Both the position numbers and the translations under genes were made by a program. DNA of 64,000 nt from the NCBI RefSeq assembly GCF_001625445.1, contig NZ_LWHG01000032.1, forward strand, positions 124,001 to 188,000, written 5' to 3'. A model generated the notes under the pieces. It saw only the letters and a program-made list of their open reading frames with translations, had not been told where the DNA came from and ran no database searches. Each line of letters opens with the position of its first letter. Within the stretch, counting starts at the first letter, position 1. Source of the stretch: Haladaptatus sp. R4 (lineage in GTDB: Archaea; Halobacteriota; Halobacteria; Halobacteriales; Haladaptataceae). Shown piece after piece: positions 31,836-63,582 of the stretch.

Positions 31836-33124
31836 TCAGAGCCCTCCCGACGTCAGCGCGTCGATGAAGCCGGGGAGCGAGGTCACTGCGAGGTAAATCG
31901 ACTGAGGACGAGCAGGACGTTCAGCCCGGCCATCACGATGCCGTTCTTGTGCTCGCCCATCGTCTTCCGGTCGTTGACCGCCCAGAACAGCACGAGGGCC
32001 GTGATCGGCAGACCGACGATGCCGTTGTACGCCGGGAACAGGAGTATCATGTCGATGATGCTCAGGCCCGCGAACTGGTGGACGAGCGGCGAGAGGCTAC
32101 CGAGACCGACGCCGACGGCGTAGATTATCTTGAACTCGCGGCTCGCGCTGTCGGCGACCGCCGCGCGCGTTCTGCAGGAGGTACGCCGGAGTCCACATTA
32201 TCGGCACGATACTGTTGAAGGCGGCGGCGACGGTGCCGATGAGGAAGACGTACATCGCCCACTTTCCGAACACGCCCGCCAGCGCCTTGCCGGGCGTGAT
32301 GAACGTGTCGAGTTGGGTGTAGCCCGCGGGACGCAACACGGCGGCCGCCACGACGACGATGGCGGCGTCGTCAATCCGCCGACGACGTAGCCGATGCCGA
32401 GGTCGCGGCGCATCTCCGGGACGTCGTCCTTGCCGACCCAGCCCTTCTCGGAGACGAGGTTCGATTCGAGGAAGAAGTTCGGCCACAGGGCGGTGGTTCC
32501 GATTGATGGACGCGGCGAGCGTCAGCGCGCCGACGGCCGGAAGCTTCGGGACGAACCCGCCCACGAGGTGGGTCACGGACGGAGTGCTCACGCCCGCAAC
32601 GGCCATGTAGACCACGAGCAGGATGAGCATCATCGCGGTCATGATCCGCTCGATACCGTCGTAGTTCATCACGCCGACGAGGATGGCGAGCACCCCGTCG
32701 CCAGCGCGAGCGGTTGCCAACCGATGGCACCGCCGAGCAGAATCGAGACTGCCTTGCCGACCGCGGCGGTGAGTTCGAGGGTCCACGCGACACAACCAAC
32801 CGAGAGGAGTACAGCCAGTACCGTCGCGCCGGTTCCCCCGATTTTCTTGCGGACGAACGACATCAACGGTTCGCCGAAAATCCCCAGCCGAGCGCTCATA
32901 TCCTGCGCCATGAACCCGAGGAACACCGCGCCCACGACCGCCCAGAGGAGACCGTAACCGTACCGAACCCCCGCGGAACTGGCGATGAACACCGACCCCG
33001 ACCCGAAGTAGCTCGCGACCATCACGAATCCGAGACCGTACTTCTGGAAGAAGCCGCTCGTGGCGTCGCGGAGGCCCTCCGAATACTGCGCTATCTTCGA
33101 CTGCCCACTGCTCTTCGTTGCCAT
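31836..33124 (-). CDS. NRAMP-family (SLC11) divalent metal transporter, several frameshifts
   Basis: The first 145 residues are intact: GLGFVMVASYFGSGSVFIASSAG (helix 1, the DPGN-equivalent), QDMSARLGIFGEPLMSFVRKK. Further pieces: VLAILVGVMNYDGIERIMTAMML, PNFFLESNLVSEKGWVGKDD, AMYVFLIGTVAAAFNSIVPIMWTPAYLL, SREFKIIYAVGVGLGSL, and the end SLPGFIDALTSGGL with TGA at 31836-31838. Lesions near 32697, 32505, 32368, 32160 and 31905. The canonical DPGN and MPH motifs are replaced, as in non-canonical NRAMP relatives, so iron or manganese specificity is not assured. Confidence 0.7.
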
Positions 33125-55511: not shown

Positions 55512-56064
55512 ATGACGAACCGGGTAACGGTGTCGCTGGACGACGAGGCACAGGTCGCGCTGGACGAACTCGTGAGTCGGGACGGAAAACCCCAGAGCGA
55601 ACTCGTCAGGCAGGCGCTCGTCTTCTACGCCGCGAACTACGACGCCGCCACGACCCAAGCGGGACCGAGCCTCGAAGCGTACCATCAAATGCTGGCGAGC
55701 GGCGAACACGTCCTGCTCGACGTGGACTTCCTCCACTGCTTCTTGGAGTACGTGGAGGACGAAGACGGCGAACCGGACGCGGCGTTTCTCGAACTGGCCG
55801 ACAGCGTCTCGAACTACCACGCCCGCGAGTACGAACACCGGATTCGAAACGCTCGGGGAACTGCTCGACTGGCTTTCGTTCTGTGGTTTCCTGACCGTTC
55901 GCGGAACGCAGGGCGACACGTATCACGTCGTGTTCCCGACCGAATCCGTCAAATGGTTCATGACGCGGTTCGTCGAGCGAAGCAGTGCCCGGCTTCCCTT
56001 CGAAATCGAACTGGAGGAAGGCGTCTCCAAGGTGCTGATGACGGAAGTCGACCCCGAACACTGA
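55512..56064 (+). CDS. Ribbon-helix-helix (CopG-like) regulator (frameshifted)
   Basis: The N-terminal 45 residues are a ribbon-helix-helix domain: TNRVTVSLDDEAQVALDELVSRDGKPQSELVRQALVFYA. A longer C-terminal domain follows; a lesion near 55843 breaks it after YEHR, and the other frame reads FETLGELLDWLSFCGFLTVRG, ending LMTEVDPEH at 56062-56064. This is a known haloarchaeal architecture of unknown ligand. It may act as an autoregulator; the upstream HdeD gene is divergent. Confidence 0.7.
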
Positions 56065-56242
56065 TCCGTTCGCCATTCCGTCAGTCATCGGTATTCGTCA
56101 GCATTCGTTGATATTCGTCGGAATTCGCCCTCCGTTCATACTCCTTCATACGATTTCATACGGCGAGAGACGGCGATACACACCGTTCTCAACAGGATTT
56201 ATCTTCGGTCCATGGGTTGAGACATCATAGCACACCACAACC

Positions 56243-57459
56243 ATGAATATCAGTGAACGACTACGCTCTATCGGACCCGGCGCGATGGTGGCCGCCGCCT
56301 TCATCGGCCCCGGAACGGTGACGACCGCCAGCGTGACCGGCGCGGAGTTCGGCTACGCGCTCGTCTGGACTATCGTCTTCTCGATCATCGCCACCATCGT
56401 CCTCCAGGAGATGAGCGCCCGCCTCGGCGTCGTCTCCCGGGAGGGACTCGGCGAAGCGCTTCGGGAACAGTTCGACAGCCCCCTGCTTTCGACCCTCAGC
56501 ATCGCGTCGTCGTGAGCGCCATCGGCATCGGGACGGCCGCCTACGAGACGGGGAACATCCTCGGCGGTGCCGCCGGGTTAGCGGGCATTACCGGCATCAG
56601 CGCGCATATCTGGGGTCCGGCCATGGGTCTCTTCGCGGCCGCGCTCCTCTGGACCGGACGCTACAAACTCATCGAGAGGGCGCTCGTCGCGTTGGTGGCT
56701 ATCATGGCGCTCTCGTTCGTCATCGACGCCATCCTCATCGGTCCCGACCTCGGCGCGCTCGCGGCGGGATTCGTCCCGAGCGTCCCTACCGGTTCGACGT
56801 TCCTCATCACGGGACTCATCGGGACGACCGTCGTCGGCTACAACCTGTTCCTGCACGCCGGAAGCGTGCAGGAACGCTGGTCGGGACCGGGTGAGTTACC
56901 CGAGTCGCGCGCCGACACGATACTCTCCATCATCATCGGCGGCGCAATCACCATCGCCATCCTCGTCACCGCGGCCGCGGCGTTCCCCGTCGGAACCCAG
57001 ATCAGCGACGTGAGCAGGATGGCCGACCAGATACGACCGCTCGCCGGACCCTACGCGACGGTTCTGTTCAGTATCGGCCTGTTCGCGGCCGGTTTCACGA
57101 GCGCGACCACGGCACCGCTCGCCGGGGCGTACGCGACTGCGGGAGCATTCGGATGGGACACCGACCTCAAATCGTCCAAGTTTCGAGCAGTTTGGGCCGT
57201 CATCCTATTCATCGGTGTCGTGTTCTCCGCGGCCGGTTACCAACCGGTGCAGGCCATCGTCTTCGCGCAGGTGGCGAACGGAATCCTGCTGCCTATCGTC
57301 GCGCTCTTCCTCATCTACATCATGAACGACAGGGACATCCTGGGAGAGTACGTGAACGACACGACGCAGAACGTCCTCGGAATTGCCGTCACGCTCGTCG
57401 TGGTCTGGCTCGGAGTACGTGCGCTCTACACCGTTCTACAGGACTTGGGGGTTTTCTGA
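56243..57459 (+). CDS. NRAMP-family (SLC11) transporter heading the hydantoinase operon (frameshifted)
   Basis: Starts MNISERLRSIGPGAMVAAAFIGPGTVTTASV, the helix-1 region where canonical NRAMP has DPGN. QEMSARLGVVSREGLGEAL follows. A lesion near 56508 (missing base after IAS) rejoins VSAIGIGTAAYETGN and runs intact to GVRALYTVLQDLGVF at 57459. The MPH motif is replaced by FLHAGS. NRAMP-like proteins lacking DPGN/MPH may move other divalent ions or organic substrates. Its stop abuts the HyuA ATG. Confidence 0.75.
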
Positions 57460-59469
57460 ATGGACGAGAACACCCGAACCCGCGTCGGCGTGGACGTCGG
57501 CGGGACGTTCACCGACGTCGTCCTCCTCCTGCCGGACGACGAACTCGTGACTGCGAAGGTACCAAGCACACGGACGACCAGAGCGTTGGCGTCGTGCAAG
57601 GAATCGGGAAAGCCTGCGAGGAGGCGGGCATCGATCCGACGGACGTGGACGCGTTCACCCACGCGATGACGGTTTCGGTGAACGCCCTGCTCGAAGAGAA
57701 CGGCGCGAAGACGGCCCTCGTGACCACCGAAGGGTTCCGCGACGTACTCGAAATCGGACGACAGGCCCGACCGGACCTCTACGACGTGAACGTCGACAAA
57801 CCCGCGCCGCTCGTCCCGCGACGGCGGCGGTTCGAAGTCGCCGAGCGGACGGGCGTCGACGGCGTCCTGACGGAACCCGACGAGGACGAAGTGCGCGAAC
57901 TGGCGGGAGAGATCCGTAACAGTGGTGCCGAAAGCGTCGCCGTCTCCCTGTTACACGCGTATCAGCACCCCGAGAACGAACGCCGGGTCGCCGAGGTTCT
58001 CCGCGAGGAACTGAACGTCCCGGTCTCGGTTTCCCACGAGGTGCTCGCGGAGTTCCGCGAATTCGAACGAACGTCCACGACGGTCGTGGACGCCTACGTG
58101 ACGCCAGCAATCGACGCCTACATCGGTCGCTTGGAGGAACGCGCCGGGAACCGGGGCGTTCCGGAACCGCGGATCATGCAAGCCAACGGCGGCATCGCGT
58201 CGGCGAAAACCGTCCGCGAACACGCGGTGACGACGACGATGTCCGGGCCAGCGGGCGGGGTCGTCGGCGCGGCGGAGACCGCCGCTGCCGACGACGTGGA
58301 CGGCCTCGTCACCTTCGACATGGGCGGCACGTCGAGCGACGTGAGCCTCGTCCGGGACGGCGAGGTGGAACGGACGACGGACGCAGAAATCAACGGCCGA
58401 CCCATCAAGACGCCGATGGTGGACGTGAACACGGTCGGCGCTGGCGGTGGCTCCATCGCGTGGGTGGACGCCGGAAACGCCCTCCGCGTCGGGCCGCGGT
58501 CCGCCGGTGCGAACCCCGGCCCCGCCTGCTACGGACGCGGCGGAACGGAGCCGACGGTGACGGACGCGAACGTCGTCCTCGGCTACATCGGCGGGAGTTC
58601 GCACTCGGCGGCGAACTCGAACTCGACGTGGACGCGGCCCACGAGGCGCTCTCGAAACTCGCGGACGAAGCCGGCTTGGACGACGCCCTCGCCGCCGCTC
58701 GGGGCGTCTTCCGGGTCGCGAACGCGAACATGGCGCGGGCGATTCGCGCCGTCACGGTCGAACGCGGCCACGACCCGCGTGGATTCGGACTCGTGGCGTT
58801 CGGCGGCGCGGGACCGATGCACGCCGCCGCCATCGCCGAGAGTTTGGACATGGATCGACTCGTGATTCCGCACGCCTGCGGCGTGCTGTCGGCCTATGGT
58901 CTGCTCGCGGCGGACGAGAAACACGACTCGGTTCGAACACTGAGAAATCCGTTGGCGGACGTTTCGCTGGACGAGGTCGAATCCGCCTACGACGACCTCA
59001 CGGACGAGGTACTCTCGGACGTGGAGAATCGGGATGCGGCGGCGGTCCAGCGGGCCGCGACCTGCGGTTCGTCGGCCAGAGCTTCGAACTCACGGTTCCC
59101 GTAGACGAGGCGTTCGACGCCGAAACGGTCGCGAAGCGATTCGAGGACGCCCACGAGAGCGCCTACGGTTACGTCATGGACGACCCCATCGAACTCGTGA
59201 ACCTTCGGACGACGGCGGTCGTCGGCCGCGAGTCGCCATCGGTTTCGTATCGAACCGCGGGCGACGCCGAAAAGGGACGCCGCGAGGCGTTTTTCGATGG
59301 CGAGTTCCACGAGACGCCGGTGTTCGACCGAACCGGACTCGGGGAATCCGATTCGGTTTCCGGCCCCGCAATCCTCGAACAGGACGAAAGTACGGTCGTC
59401 GTGCCGCCGGGATGGTCCGGGACGACGAACGCGGACGGAACGCTGGTGCTCGGGAGGGAGGAAGAATGA
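57460..59469 (+). CDS. hyuA: Hydantoinase/oxoprolinase subunit A (HyuA), frameshifted
   Basis: Starts MDENTRTRVGVDVGGTFTDVVLLLP, the actin-like ATP-binding P-loop; the second phosphate loop is FDMGGTSSDVSLV, with GAGGGSIAWVD and NPGPACYGRGG. Lesions near 57554, 58592 and 59056 are each repaired by one base; the ends then join as GGELELDVDAAHEAL and RFVGQSFELTVPVDEAF. About 669 residues, normal for the family. ATP-dependent hydrolysis of a hydantoin, oxoproline or related cyclic amide, with HyuB. Confidence 0.85.
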
Positions 59470-61110
59470 GCCACGACGATTCGAATTCGAACTCTGACAC
59501 GGACATCGACGCGGTAACGCTCGAAATCATGCGAAATCAGTTCGAGGGTGTCTCCGAGGAGATGGGACAAGTGCTCATCACCTCGTCGTACTCGCCGAAC
59601 ATCAAGGAGCGACGCGACTGCTCGACGGCGCTGTTCGACGCCGAAGGGCGACTGGTCGCGCAGGCCGAACACATCCCGGTGCATCTCGGCGCGATGCCCG
59701 AGGCCGTGGACACGGTACTCGACTACGACCCGGAACCGGGCGACGTGTTCGTCCTGAACGACCCGTTCGAGGGCGGCACCCACTTACCGGACGTGACGAT
59801 GGTGTCGCCGGTTACGGTCGAGGACGAAATCCTCGGGTACGCCGTCTCTCCCGCGCTCACCACGCCGACGTCGGGGGGATGGACGCCGGGAAGCATGCCC
59901 GCCGGGGCACAGGAGATCTATCAGGAGGGGATTCGACTGCCGCCGGTTCGCCTCGTGAAGCGTGGCGAAGTCAACGACGACGTGATGAGCCTCCTGCTCG
60001 CCAACGTCAGGAACCCCGGCGAGCGACGGGCGGACATCCGCGCACAGATCGCCGCGAACGAACGGGCCGAAGAACGACTCGGCGACCTCGTGGAAGAACA
60101 CGGTCGGGAGCGCGTCGTCTCGGCGTTCGACGCGGTGATTTCGTACTCGCGGGATCGACTGCTCGCCGAACTCGACGACCTTCCGAACGGAACGTACAGC
60201 GCCCACGACGTGATGGAAGGGGACGGCATCTCGGACGACGAGATACCCATCGAGGTTTCCGTGACGGTCGGCGACGAGGAAATCGAGGTGGATTTCTCCG
60301 GAACCGCTCCGCAGGTTCCGGGCAACGTCAACGCGCCGCTCGCGGTGGCGAAGAGCGCCGTCTACTTCGTGATTCGCTGTGTAACGGACCCCGAAATCCC
60401 GCCGAGCGAGGGCTGTTACGACCCGGTTTCCGTCTCGGTCCCGGACGGGTCGCTGTTGAATCCTCAACCGCCAGCGGCCGTGGTCGGCGGCAACGTCGAA
60501 ACCAGCCAGCGAGTGACGGACGTCGTGTTTTCCGCGCTCGCCGAGGCGGCCCTGGACCGCGTTCCAGCGCAGGGGCAGGGAACGATGAACAACCTCACCA
60601 TCGGGAGCAGGGGCGGCGGCGACGACGGCTTCACCTACTACGAGACCATCGCGGGTGGCTTCGGCGGTCGCCCCACGAAGGACGGGATGGACGGCGTACA
60701 GGTCCCGGGATGACGAACACGCTGAACACGCCCGTCGAGTCCCTCGAAGCCGAATACCCGCTGTTCGTCGAACGGTACGGACTCCGCGAGAACAGCGGCG
60801 GACACGGGCAGTTCCGTGGCGGCCTCGGCGTGGTGCGTTCCGTCAGCGTCGAAACGGACGCGACCGTCTCCCTGTTGACCGAACGGCGACGCGTCGCTCC
60901 GCACGGAATCGACGGCGGAGCGGACGGACGGTGCGGCCGTAACGAAATCGACGGGGAACGCGTTCGGCGAAGACCACCCGCGACGTGGAGTCGGGGACGA
61001 CCATCACGGTGTTCACGCCGGGCGGCGGCGGGCACGGTCCAGCGGAAGAGCGCGACCCCGACGCCATCGAGATGGACAGGGACGACGGGAAGATGGAGTG
61101 GGAAGAATGA
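59466..61110 (+). CDS. hyuB: Hydantoinase/oxoprolinase subunit B (HyuB), frameshifted
   Basis: The ATG overlaps the HyuA stop (ATGA). Landmarks: [105 protein letters not shown] lesion near 60706 rejoins [30 protein letters not shown], and a second near 60966 rejoins [23 protein letters not shown]. The restored end is KMEWEE at 61108-61110. Together with HyuA forms a two-subunit ATP-dependent amidohydrolase. Confidence 0.85.
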
Positions 61111-61859
61111 TCGCCCCGGAGAGCGACGACACGAGCGGGGTGGCCGTAATGTTCGGATGGCGCGGCCGTCTCGGCGTCGTCGTCCCGTCCTCGAACACGA
61201 CGGTGGAGGGCGAATTCGGGCGGGTGCTTCCGGAGGGCGTGAGCCTCCACACAGCCCGAATGCCGCTCGAATCGGTCACCGTGGACGAATTGGACACGAT
61301 GGCTGACGATGCCGTGGGCTGTGCGGAGCGATTGTCCCACGCGGACGTCGATGCCATCGCCTACGCCTGTACGACGGGAAGCCTCCTCCACGGCCCGGGG
61401 TTCGACGCGGAACTCGAAGACGCGTTGGCCGAGGCCGCGGGCGTTCCGGCGGTGGCGACGGCCCTGTCGGTCAAGCGGGCGCTCTCCGCCCTCGACGCGA
61501 CGCGAATCGTCGTCGTGACGCCGTACACCGCCGAGTTGAACGACCGCGAGGAGTCGTATCTGAACGACGCCGGGTTCGAGGTGGTCGAACTCGACGGGCA
61601 CGGCATCACGGCGAACACGGACATCGGGTCGTTGTCAGCGGACGACGCGTACCGACAGGTCCGGAAAACAGTCTCGGACCCGAGTACCGTCGACGCCGTG
61701 TTCGTCTCGTGTACGAACTACCGAACGCTTCCCGCCATCGAACCCCTCGAATCGGACCTCGGGATTCCGGTGGTGACGAGCAATCAAGCGACGCTGTGGG
61801 ATGCACTCGGTCGAGTGAGCGTTTCGGCGGACGTGCCGGGAGCGGTTGGAGAACGATGA
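61107..61859 (+). CDS. Asp/Glu racemase / maleate cis-trans isomerase superfamily protein
   Basis: Intact, 250 residues from ATG at 61107, which overlaps the HyuB stop. RLGVVVPSSNTTVEGEF near the start, first catalytic cysteine in AYACTTGSLLHGPG, second in VFVSCTNYRTLPA: the two-cysteine racemase/isomerase arrangement, closest to maleate isomerase and hydantoin racemase. In an oxoprolinase-type operon a hydantoin or amino acid racemase that supplies the right stereoisomer is the logical role (inference). Confidence 0.75.
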   Translation: MIAPESDDTSGVAVMFGWRGRLGVVVPSSNTTVEGEFGRVLPEGVSLHTARMPLESVTVDELDTMADDAVGCAERLSHADVDAIAYACTTGSLLHGPGFDAELEDALAEAAGVPAVATALSVKRALSALDATRIVVVTPYTAELNDREESYLNDAGFEVVELDGHGITANTDIGSLSADDAYRQVRKTVSDPSTVDAVFVSCTNYRTLPAIEPLESDLGIPVVTSNQATLWDALGRVSVSADVPGAVGER

Positions 61860-61925
61860 GGGAACCGACAGAACCCCGTCTGCCGGTTTGTAAACGCTTT
61901 CCCCTTCCCCCACGAGGAAGGTGAC

Positions 61926-63241
61926 ATGACGAACGCGAACGGCGGAGCGGACGGAGGAGAAACACGAGAGAGCGAGGCGAGCACGGGCGATCCGTCTCTC
62001 GTCGAACTACGCCGCGATTTGCACGCCCACCCCGAGGCCGGATGGAAGGAGTTCCGGACGACGGCGCTCGTCGCGGCGGAACTCGACGAACGGGGATTCA
62101 CGCTCCATCTCGGAGCGGACGCCGTCGACGTTGACGCACGCCTCGGCGTGCCGAGCGACGACGAAATCGCGGGCGCGAAAGCCCGAGCGCGTGAGGAAGG
62201 TGCACCAGAGCGGTATCTGGAGCGAATGGGCGACGTGACGGGACTCGTCGCCGAGAAGACGTGGGGAACCGGCGACGGGCCGACCGTCGGTGTCCGAATC
62301 GACATGGACGCGCTCGAACTGACCGAGTCGAGCGACGACGCCACCGACCCGCACGGGAGGGGTTCGTGAGCCGTCATCCTGGAGAGATGCACGCTTGCGG
62401 TCACGACGGACACACGACCATCGGCGTCGGAATTGCCCGTGAACTCGACGCCACCGGCGGATTCGATGGACACCTCAAACTGTTCTTCCAGCCAGCCGAG
62501 GAGGGCGGGCGTGGCGGCGTTCCGATGAGTAAGACGGACCACCTCGCCGACCTCGACCACTTCCTCGCGCTCCACCTCGGCCTCGACAACGAGACGGGGA
62601 AGGTCATCGCCGCCTACGAACACCCCTTGTCGAACGCGAAGCTAGACGTGACCTTCCACGGGGAAGCCGCACACGCCGGAAAAGCGCCGAACCAAGGCCG
62701 GAACGCGCTTCAGGCGATGACGACGGCCATCGGAAACCTGTACACGATTCCGCGACACGCGGACGGGGCGACGCGGATCAACGTCGGACAGGTTCACTCC
62801 CCGAACGCACAGAACGTCATCGCCGAGGAGGCGAAAATGCGCATCGAAGTCCGCGGCGAGACCGCCGAACTCAACGACTACATGCTCTCCCGAGCGCGGC
62901 GAATCGTGAAACACGCCGCCGCGATGCACGACGTGGAGTTCGAAACGTCGCTCTACGGGAAGACGACGACGTTCACCGCCGACGACGGGATGGTTACGGC
63001 CGTCGCCCAAGCCGCAGAGGGAGTCGAGGGTGTCGATACCGTCGTCGAGCGAGCGCCCATCGGCGCGAGCGAGGACGCCTCGTTCCTCATCGAACGGGTA
63101 CAGGAGGAAGGTGGCGTGGGGACCTACGTCGGAATCGGTGCGAGCAACCCGTTCGGACACCACACGTCGAAGTTCGACATCGACGAGGACGCGCTGAAAA
63201 TCGGTGTCGACGTCGTCGTTGAGACGATTCGGTCGCTGTAG
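61926..63241 (+). CDS. M20D-family amidohydrolase (AbgA/IAA-amino-acid hydrolase type), frameshifted
   Basis: Starts MTNANGGADGGET; LRRDLHAHPEAGWKEFRTTALV is the family opening. DGPTVGVRIDMDALELTES comes before a lesion near 62350; one base restores HPGEMHACGHDGHTTIG, the metal site, followed by FQPAEEGGRGG, GEAAHAGKAPNQGRNA, and a stop at 63241. About 438 residues. Hydrolyses an N-acyl or N-carbamoyl amino acid, a plausible last step after HyuAB. The 66-base gap to the racemase suggests the same transcript. Confidence 0.8.
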
Positions 63242-63582
63242 CGAAGAGACTCATCAGGAACTCACGAGGGGGCACACACAAAAACGGTCTTCGGCGGAGG
63301 CGGCGACGTTGTCGCCGCCTCCGGTACCGTCTCTACCATCGAAATCATCCCCACTACTTCCGTTGTCATCGCTCCGACTGCTACCGTTTTCTCCGTTTCC
63401 GACTTCATCACTACAATTTCCGCTGTCCTGGGTACTGACAGCCCAGTCACCGAGTCGGAATTCACTCGCCAGCGTTGTCAAACAACCTCGTCCGAAGGAA
63501 CCAAATCCCGAATTGTCACGGAGTTTTCGCACGACGGGACGCCGAGGAATAGATTGTTAATCCTCGAAATCCGATGGATGGT
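63242..63582. other. Intergenic region with a hairpin, after the hydantoinase operon
   Basis: 341 bases. Apart from the hairpin at 63295-63323 I see nothing certain. Pyrimidine-rich DNA (about 63340-63430) gives a low-complexity appearance. Confidence 0.5.
63295..63323. terminator. Hairpin past the M20D gene, likely 3' end of the operon
   Basis: 13-base perfect arms CGGAGGCGGCGAC and complement around a GTT loop, 53 bases past the stop at 63241. No trailing T run, so in archaea it is more an RNA 3' structure than a proven terminator. Confidence 0.55.

Follow-up and report, generated by a model that had tools for sequence, protein, structure and literature searches.

Why does a relative of the NRAMP metal transporters stand at the head of a gene cluster for ATP-dependent ring opening? 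The question is raised by a locus of Haladaptatus sp. R4 within a window of 64,000 nucleotides (contig NZ_LWHG01000032.1, positions 124,001 to 188,000), and all coordinates below are counted within this window. Five genes lie here on the plus strand: an NRAMP-related carrier (56243 to 57459), hyuA (57460 to 59469), hyuB (59466 to 61110), a racemase-like gene (61107 to 61859) and an M20D amidohydrolase gene (61926 to 63241). The carrier gene ends at 57459 and hyuA starts at 57460, ATGA overlaps lead into hyuB (59466-59469) and into the racemase gene (61107-61110), and a perfect hairpin with 13-nucleotide arms and a 3-nucleotide loop, a possible terminator, follows at 63295 to 63323. An original prediction, made from the DNA letters alone, described this layout as a five-gene operon; its gene directions, junctions and hairpin were all found, and a Pfam search of all pieces agrees (NRAMP; Hydant_A_N, Hydantoinase_A and Hydant_A_C; Hydantoinase_B; Amdase and Asp_Glu_race; Peptidase_M20). 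It missed the regulator gene just upstream, a repeat array before the carrier gene and the broken reading frames. The conserved unit comprises a ribbon-helix-helix (RHH) regulator gene, TTCATAC repeats, the genes of the NRAMP-like carrier and of HyuA and HyuB and, in most cases, a two-cysteine racemase gene; its probable role is the scavenging of 5-oxoproline (pyroglutamate).

The order NRAMP-hyuA-hyuB is kept at all 15 loci first examined in related genomes (L025-L039), with the racemase gene next in 13 and an M20D gene in none. The M20D gene of the window (TIGR01891, 207 bits against a cut-off of 153.75) has orthologues of 74-79% identity elsewhere in the genomes of the genus, which rules out the five-gene operon and removes the last step of the predicted pathway, the release of an amino acid by this amidohydrolase; the racemase, also part of the predicted gene set, is upheld as a frequent member. 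Across haloarchaea, this NRAMP clade is present in 112 of 391 genomes and 37 of 86 genera. Judged from coordinates, 92 of the 112 genomes have hyuB 3-4 kb downstream of the NRAMP gene and in the same orientation. Among the other 20, 18 were inspected, and hyuAB was found beside the NRAMP gene in 16, including one rearranged locus and one truncated by the end of its contig, and was absent beside it in two divergent copies; the last two genomes have the locus split across contig ends. The prediction had staked itself on conservation of this adjacency, which totals 108 of 112 genomes, so it stands on that point. The hyuAB pair itself is nearly universal (370/391 genomes). At the hyuAB loci of 20 genomes picked for lacking this NRAMP, neither an NRAMP nor the racemase gene was found, and a dedicated alternative transporter was sought beside solo hyuAB with none recurring, although some neighbours encode a MATE-like protein or are cofE- or mer-like. 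As read from the sequence, loci L079, L080, L081, L090 and L093 carry hyuAB without an NRAMP gene, followed by one gene resembling cofE (F420-0 glutamyl ligase) and another resembling mer. Divergent loci show other combinations: RHH-NRAMP without hyuAB at L112 and L119, beside enoyl-CoA hydratase and thiolase genes in Natrononativus, and NRAMP-racemase without hyuAB at L113 in genome G119.

The carrier belongs to the NRAMP family (PF01566, 334.9 bits against a cut-off of 29.8) and has lost the metal site. The canonical NRAMP/Slc11 motif DPGN in transmembrane segment 1 (TM1) is replaced by GPGT, and MPH in TM6 by VGY (GTTVVGY in the window), in each of the 14 operon copies as well as in the window. 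Relative to DraNramp, the substitutions are D56 to G, N59 to T, M230 to V, A227 to T and H232 to Y, all of them fixed in the clade. Two canonical NRAMPs with both DPGN and MPH are encoded in the same genome, on contigs C21 and C5. An AlphaFold model of a haloarchaeal member (L178; predicted local distance difference test score, pLDDT, 80) has 6d91 as its best PDB match (TM-score 0.86) and predicts the LeuT-like NRAMP fold, in which the breaks of TM1 and TM6 coincide with the altered motifs. The substitutions agree with those reported for the “orphan” outgroup of Slc11, which has the PF01566 fold, G for the TM1 Asp, V..Y in TM6, T at the Ala position and Y..GN in TM3 (PMC10606218). The “G-motif” groups likewise combine this fold with G replacing the TM1 Asp (PMC12873925); the carrier was placed in a named NRAMP-related group by motif and not through the tree of that study. 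Its lineage falls among NRAMP-related groups that were described in 2026 as entirely uncharacterised, with the NRMT-like and MntG groups as exceptions (PMC12873925), and the only functions given in these two studies are those of EleNRMT, a magnesium transporter, and of MntG (YcsG), a hypothesised Mn importer. Another possible non-metal NRAMP is encoded on a Neorhizobium plasmid (L122, 4810-7197), where an NRAMP-related protein with GPGN and without MPH lies beside a gene of the dihydrodipicolinate synthase family.

What such a carrier might move is suggested by its bacterial relatives. A scan of the subfamily with one genome per species yielded 80 loci, which are spread over Pseudomonadota, Bacteroidota, Bacillota, Actinomycetota and Planctomycetota and include two haloarchaea. 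Neighbouring genes played no part in the selection; the search patterns contain the TM1 and TM6 motifs, so the uniformity of these motifs among the 80 loci is partly a product of selection. Bacterial members are 46-60% identical to a haloarchaeal copy. The genes of the 5-oxoprolinase PxpABC lie beside the NRAMP gene in 33 of the 80 loci, on the same strand in 32 of the 33 and within 200 bp in 30, and two Bacteroidetes members have a fused 1252-residue HyuA-HyuB enzyme in place of pxpABC. One type of carrier is thus seen to alternate between unrelated enzymes of the same chemistry, and the shared element would therefore be the substrate, 5-oxoproline; this is the main argument for oxoproline as cargo. 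In a phylogenetic tree, the haloarchaeal copies cluster with copies from Bacillota that are pxp-linked (Shimodaira-Hasegawa-like approximate likelihood ratio test, SH-aLRT, 86-90), and the hyu-linked Bacteroidetes pair sits among pxp-linked Bacteroidetes (SH-aLRT 92), which is no more than suggestive of the hyu link having arisen twice. No hyu or pxp genes lie near any of five further NRAMP loci in the genome of Haladaptatus sp. R4, and no match to pxpA, pxpB or pxpC, which together define a PxpTABC system, was found near any haloarchaeal NRAMP locus searched.

The enzyme subunits carry the motifs of the ATP-dependent hydantoinase/oxoprolinase family. HyuA is the ATP-binding subunit (PF05378, PF01968 and PF19278) and HyuB the metal-binding one (PF02538, 507.9 and 98.6 bits). 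In congener L025, the phosphate motifs DxGGTxTD and DxGGT and the adenosine motif GxxPGP of HyuA are all present together with the Asp-His-Asp-His ligands of HyuB, as these motifs and ligands were defined for caprolactamase (PMC8453981). In the window, the HyuA motifs read DVGGTFTD, DMGGT and GANPGP, and the last His of HyuB falls where two indels have scrambled the sequence. Caprolactamase CapAB (6yra) and N-methylhydantoinase (7hk5) belong to the same family and share these motifs; HyuAB, however, scores below the CapA and CapB equivalog cut-offs (514/1000 and 274/1000 bits) and has an NRAMP partner, which the available text of the reports describes for neither enzyme. The racemase-like protein, a two-cysteine Asp/Glu-racemase or maleate-isomerase-like enzyme (PF17645, 131.6 bits; PF01177, 45.1 bits), has orthologues (E below 1e-100) in 13 of 15 NRAMP-bearing relatives and in 0 of 44 others (Fisher p 3e-11, uncorrected for relatedness). 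Its cysteines, in CTTGS and SCTNY, are invariant in 13 sequences and place it in the two-cysteine superfamily. Maleate isomerase, arylmalonate decarboxylase and EutA share its fold family (100-bit PDB match), but it falls below the equivalog cut-offs of the latter two and keeps both catalytic cysteines. Arylmalonate decarboxylase is a one-cysteine enzyme, so the two invariant cysteines argue against that activity.

The regulator gene, CopG-type and about 183 codons long, occupies 55512 to 56064 on the plus strand. In the window it is matched in two frames at 80% and 91% identity, and the congener copy has the N-terminal RHH domain (PF01402, 32.0 bits against a cut-off of 20.5). Such a protein is encoded directly before the NRAMP gene in nearly all haloarchaeal loci, and almost all of the 21 RHH-protein matches in a plasmid collection adjoin this NRAMP, which makes it a probable dedicated regulator. 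Its C-terminal domain matched no Pfam family, and the weak model of this domain (pLDDT 66, built from two sequences) gave no PDB match under E 0.001. Between regulator and carrier genes, three direct TTCATAC repeats with an exact 10-bp period (56135 to 56161, plus strand) form a putative operator. The array had 0 chance matches in 100 shuffles and is the sole site at two or fewer mismatches in the 4.9-Mb genome. It is recognisable about 110-120 nucleotides upstream of the NRAMP gene in most loci tested, distant families included (21/21 in L109, 20/21 in L036 and L117; absent or weak in L037, L039, L105 and L113). With this observed association, the array would be the binding site of the RHH protein. 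A TATA-like promoter element is proposed at 56197 to 56204 (plus strand), a stretch of TTTTAA/TTTATC type conserved in the intergenic alignment.

Taken together, the components suggest a route for 5-oxoproline. The NRAMP-related protein, its metal site lost, would import the compound, HyuA would phosphorylate the lactam with ATP, and metal-bound HyuB would complete the ring opening to glutamate. HyuAB would accordingly act as a two-subunit ATP-dependent 5-oxoprolinase, an assignment based on the carrier shared with pxpABC. The racemase would probably permit use of the D form of 5-oxoproline or glutamate, and the RHH protein would control the operon through the three repeats. Similar pairings of an NRAMP-family protein with an ATP-dependent lactam-opening enzyme are known from pxpTABC of Corynebacterium glutamicum, in which the carrier PxpT is needed for growth on 5-oxoproline (PMC13274462), and from ycsF-ycsG-kipIA of Bacillus subtilis. 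In both, however, the enzyme PxpABC is unrelated to HyuAB and the regulator is GntR-type (PxpR) or KipR instead of an RHH protein. The present carrier also comes from a different NRAMP-related lineage than YcsG (model 9a52; 21% identity over the structural alignment), and a pxp-linked NRAMP copy of Klebsiella likewise lacks the metal motif (GPGF, GGY). The association of NRAMP with pxpABC (YcsG/PxpT) is already known; the pairing with HyuAB, this carrier clade, the RHH regulator and the TTCATAC operator appear to be new.

Several observations weigh against the assignment to 5-oxoproline. YcsG, which is NRAMP-related and outside the clades with the canonical metal motif, was reported to raise cellular Mn (PMC10448178), and this assignment as a Mn importer conflicts with 5-oxoproline uptake proposed by others (discussed in PMC13274462), a dispute that carries over to the present carrier. 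In the subfamily, both pxp and hyu genes are missing from the neighbourhood of 43 of the 80 loci, and a single origin of the hyu link narrowly escapes rejection (approximately unbiased test, p = 0.053). Most haloarchaea carry hyuAB without the NRAMP. Sequence does not separate lactam substrates within the HyuAB family; the nearest PDB protein for both HyuA and HyuB is N-methylhydantoinase, with caprolactamase second, and the fused enzyme of Bacteroidetes shares its architecture with eukaryotic 5-oxoprolinase and with the solved N-methylhydantoinase alike. In this genus, pxpA is present as well in some genomes, and HyuAB may therefore be redundant or have another lactam as its substrate. The same architecture could thus serve a different ring, with the carrier and HyuAB handling hydantoin or another lactam and the protein next to them acting as a hydantoin racemase, an enzyme of the same racemase family. 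This is unlikely, given that the carrier subfamily is repeatedly paired with PxpABC, a dedicated 5-oxoprolinase, and that HyuB retains the last His of the metal tetrad, which is absent from the aligned part of N-methylhydantoinase. In one congener, moreover, hydantoinase/carbamoylase-like genes and pxpABC lie beside an NCS1-type “cytosine permease”. The prediction had named oxoproline and hydantoin as possible cargoes; the pxpABC partnership favours the former, and the latter is not specifically supported, the hydantoinase/carbamoylase-like genes being found with a different transporter.

Two further explanations are less probable still. Delivery of Mn2+ or another divalent cation to metal-binding HyuB, also put forward in the prediction, would fit the divalent metal bound by HyuB homologues (PMC8453981) and the rise in cellular Mn on overproduction of YcsG in B. 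subtilis (PMC10448178). It is nevertheless improbable, because all five DraNramp positions listed above are substituted and fixed and the genome keeps two canonical NRAMPs; the partners of the carrier are also 5-oxoprolinase genes and not metal enzymes generally. Equally improbable is that the operon of this strain is a decaying pseudogene cluster. Among the five genes only that of the racemase is an open frame, the other four being cut by indels of 1-2 nucleotides. Alignment with congeners L025 and L026 places these at 56506 (-1) in the carrier gene, at 57567 (+2), 58600 (-1) and 59058 (-1) in hyuA, and at 59845 (+2), 59881 (+1), 60704 (+2) and 60964 (-1) in hyuB, where the pair at 59845 and 59881 is jointly in frame but replaces the metal-ligand segment. 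Breaks also occur in the M20D gene (near 62340-62366) and in the regulator gene (near 55843). A codon-frame scan, which is rough and scored several switches in some other loci too, counted 27 frame switches in the window (4.7 per 10 kb coding) and mostly 0-1 in congener loci; within the same genome, contig C29 has a density like that of the window, but C21 and C5 have none. Since the breaks span the whole window and the congener genes are intact, they are most likely sequence errors in a poorly assembled contig of low sequence quality, and decay specific to the operon is rejected. The operon was treated as functional because the congener copies have intact frames. A second NRAMP-family gene of the window (32148-32980, minus strand) is frame-broken too, lying in three pieces.

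The 5-oxoproline assignment has a wider bearing. It is possible, at somewhat less than an even chance, that the “orphan” NRAMP-related clade near the root of the metal-transporting NRAMPs consists of carriers of 5-oxoproline or related lactams with three enzyme arrangements (PxpABC, split HyuAB and fused HyuAB). If so, NRAMP metal transport would stand beside, or derive from, transport of small organic molecules. Genome annotations label proteins of the carrier's clade “Nramp family divalent metal transporter”, which would be wrong at hundreds of loci if the 5-oxoproline assignment holds. A clade without metal ligands also offers a direct test of the live dispute over whether 5-oxoprolinase-linked NRAMP-like proteins carry oxoproline (PxpT) or Mn (YcsG/MntG). 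Finally, a role is proposed for haloarchaeal HyuAB, usually annotated merely as hydantoinase/oxoprolinase family.

The genomic setting of the operon varies. Named strains of Haladaptatus, Haloferax and Haloarcula (L121, L117, L118 and records of the plasmid collection) carry it on plasmids of 0.3-0.6 Mb, which makes it a probable accessory trait that can move between genomes. One congener (G006, contig C1; L028 and L029) has two copies of the entire operon, which score identically as matches and are separated by about 550 kb.

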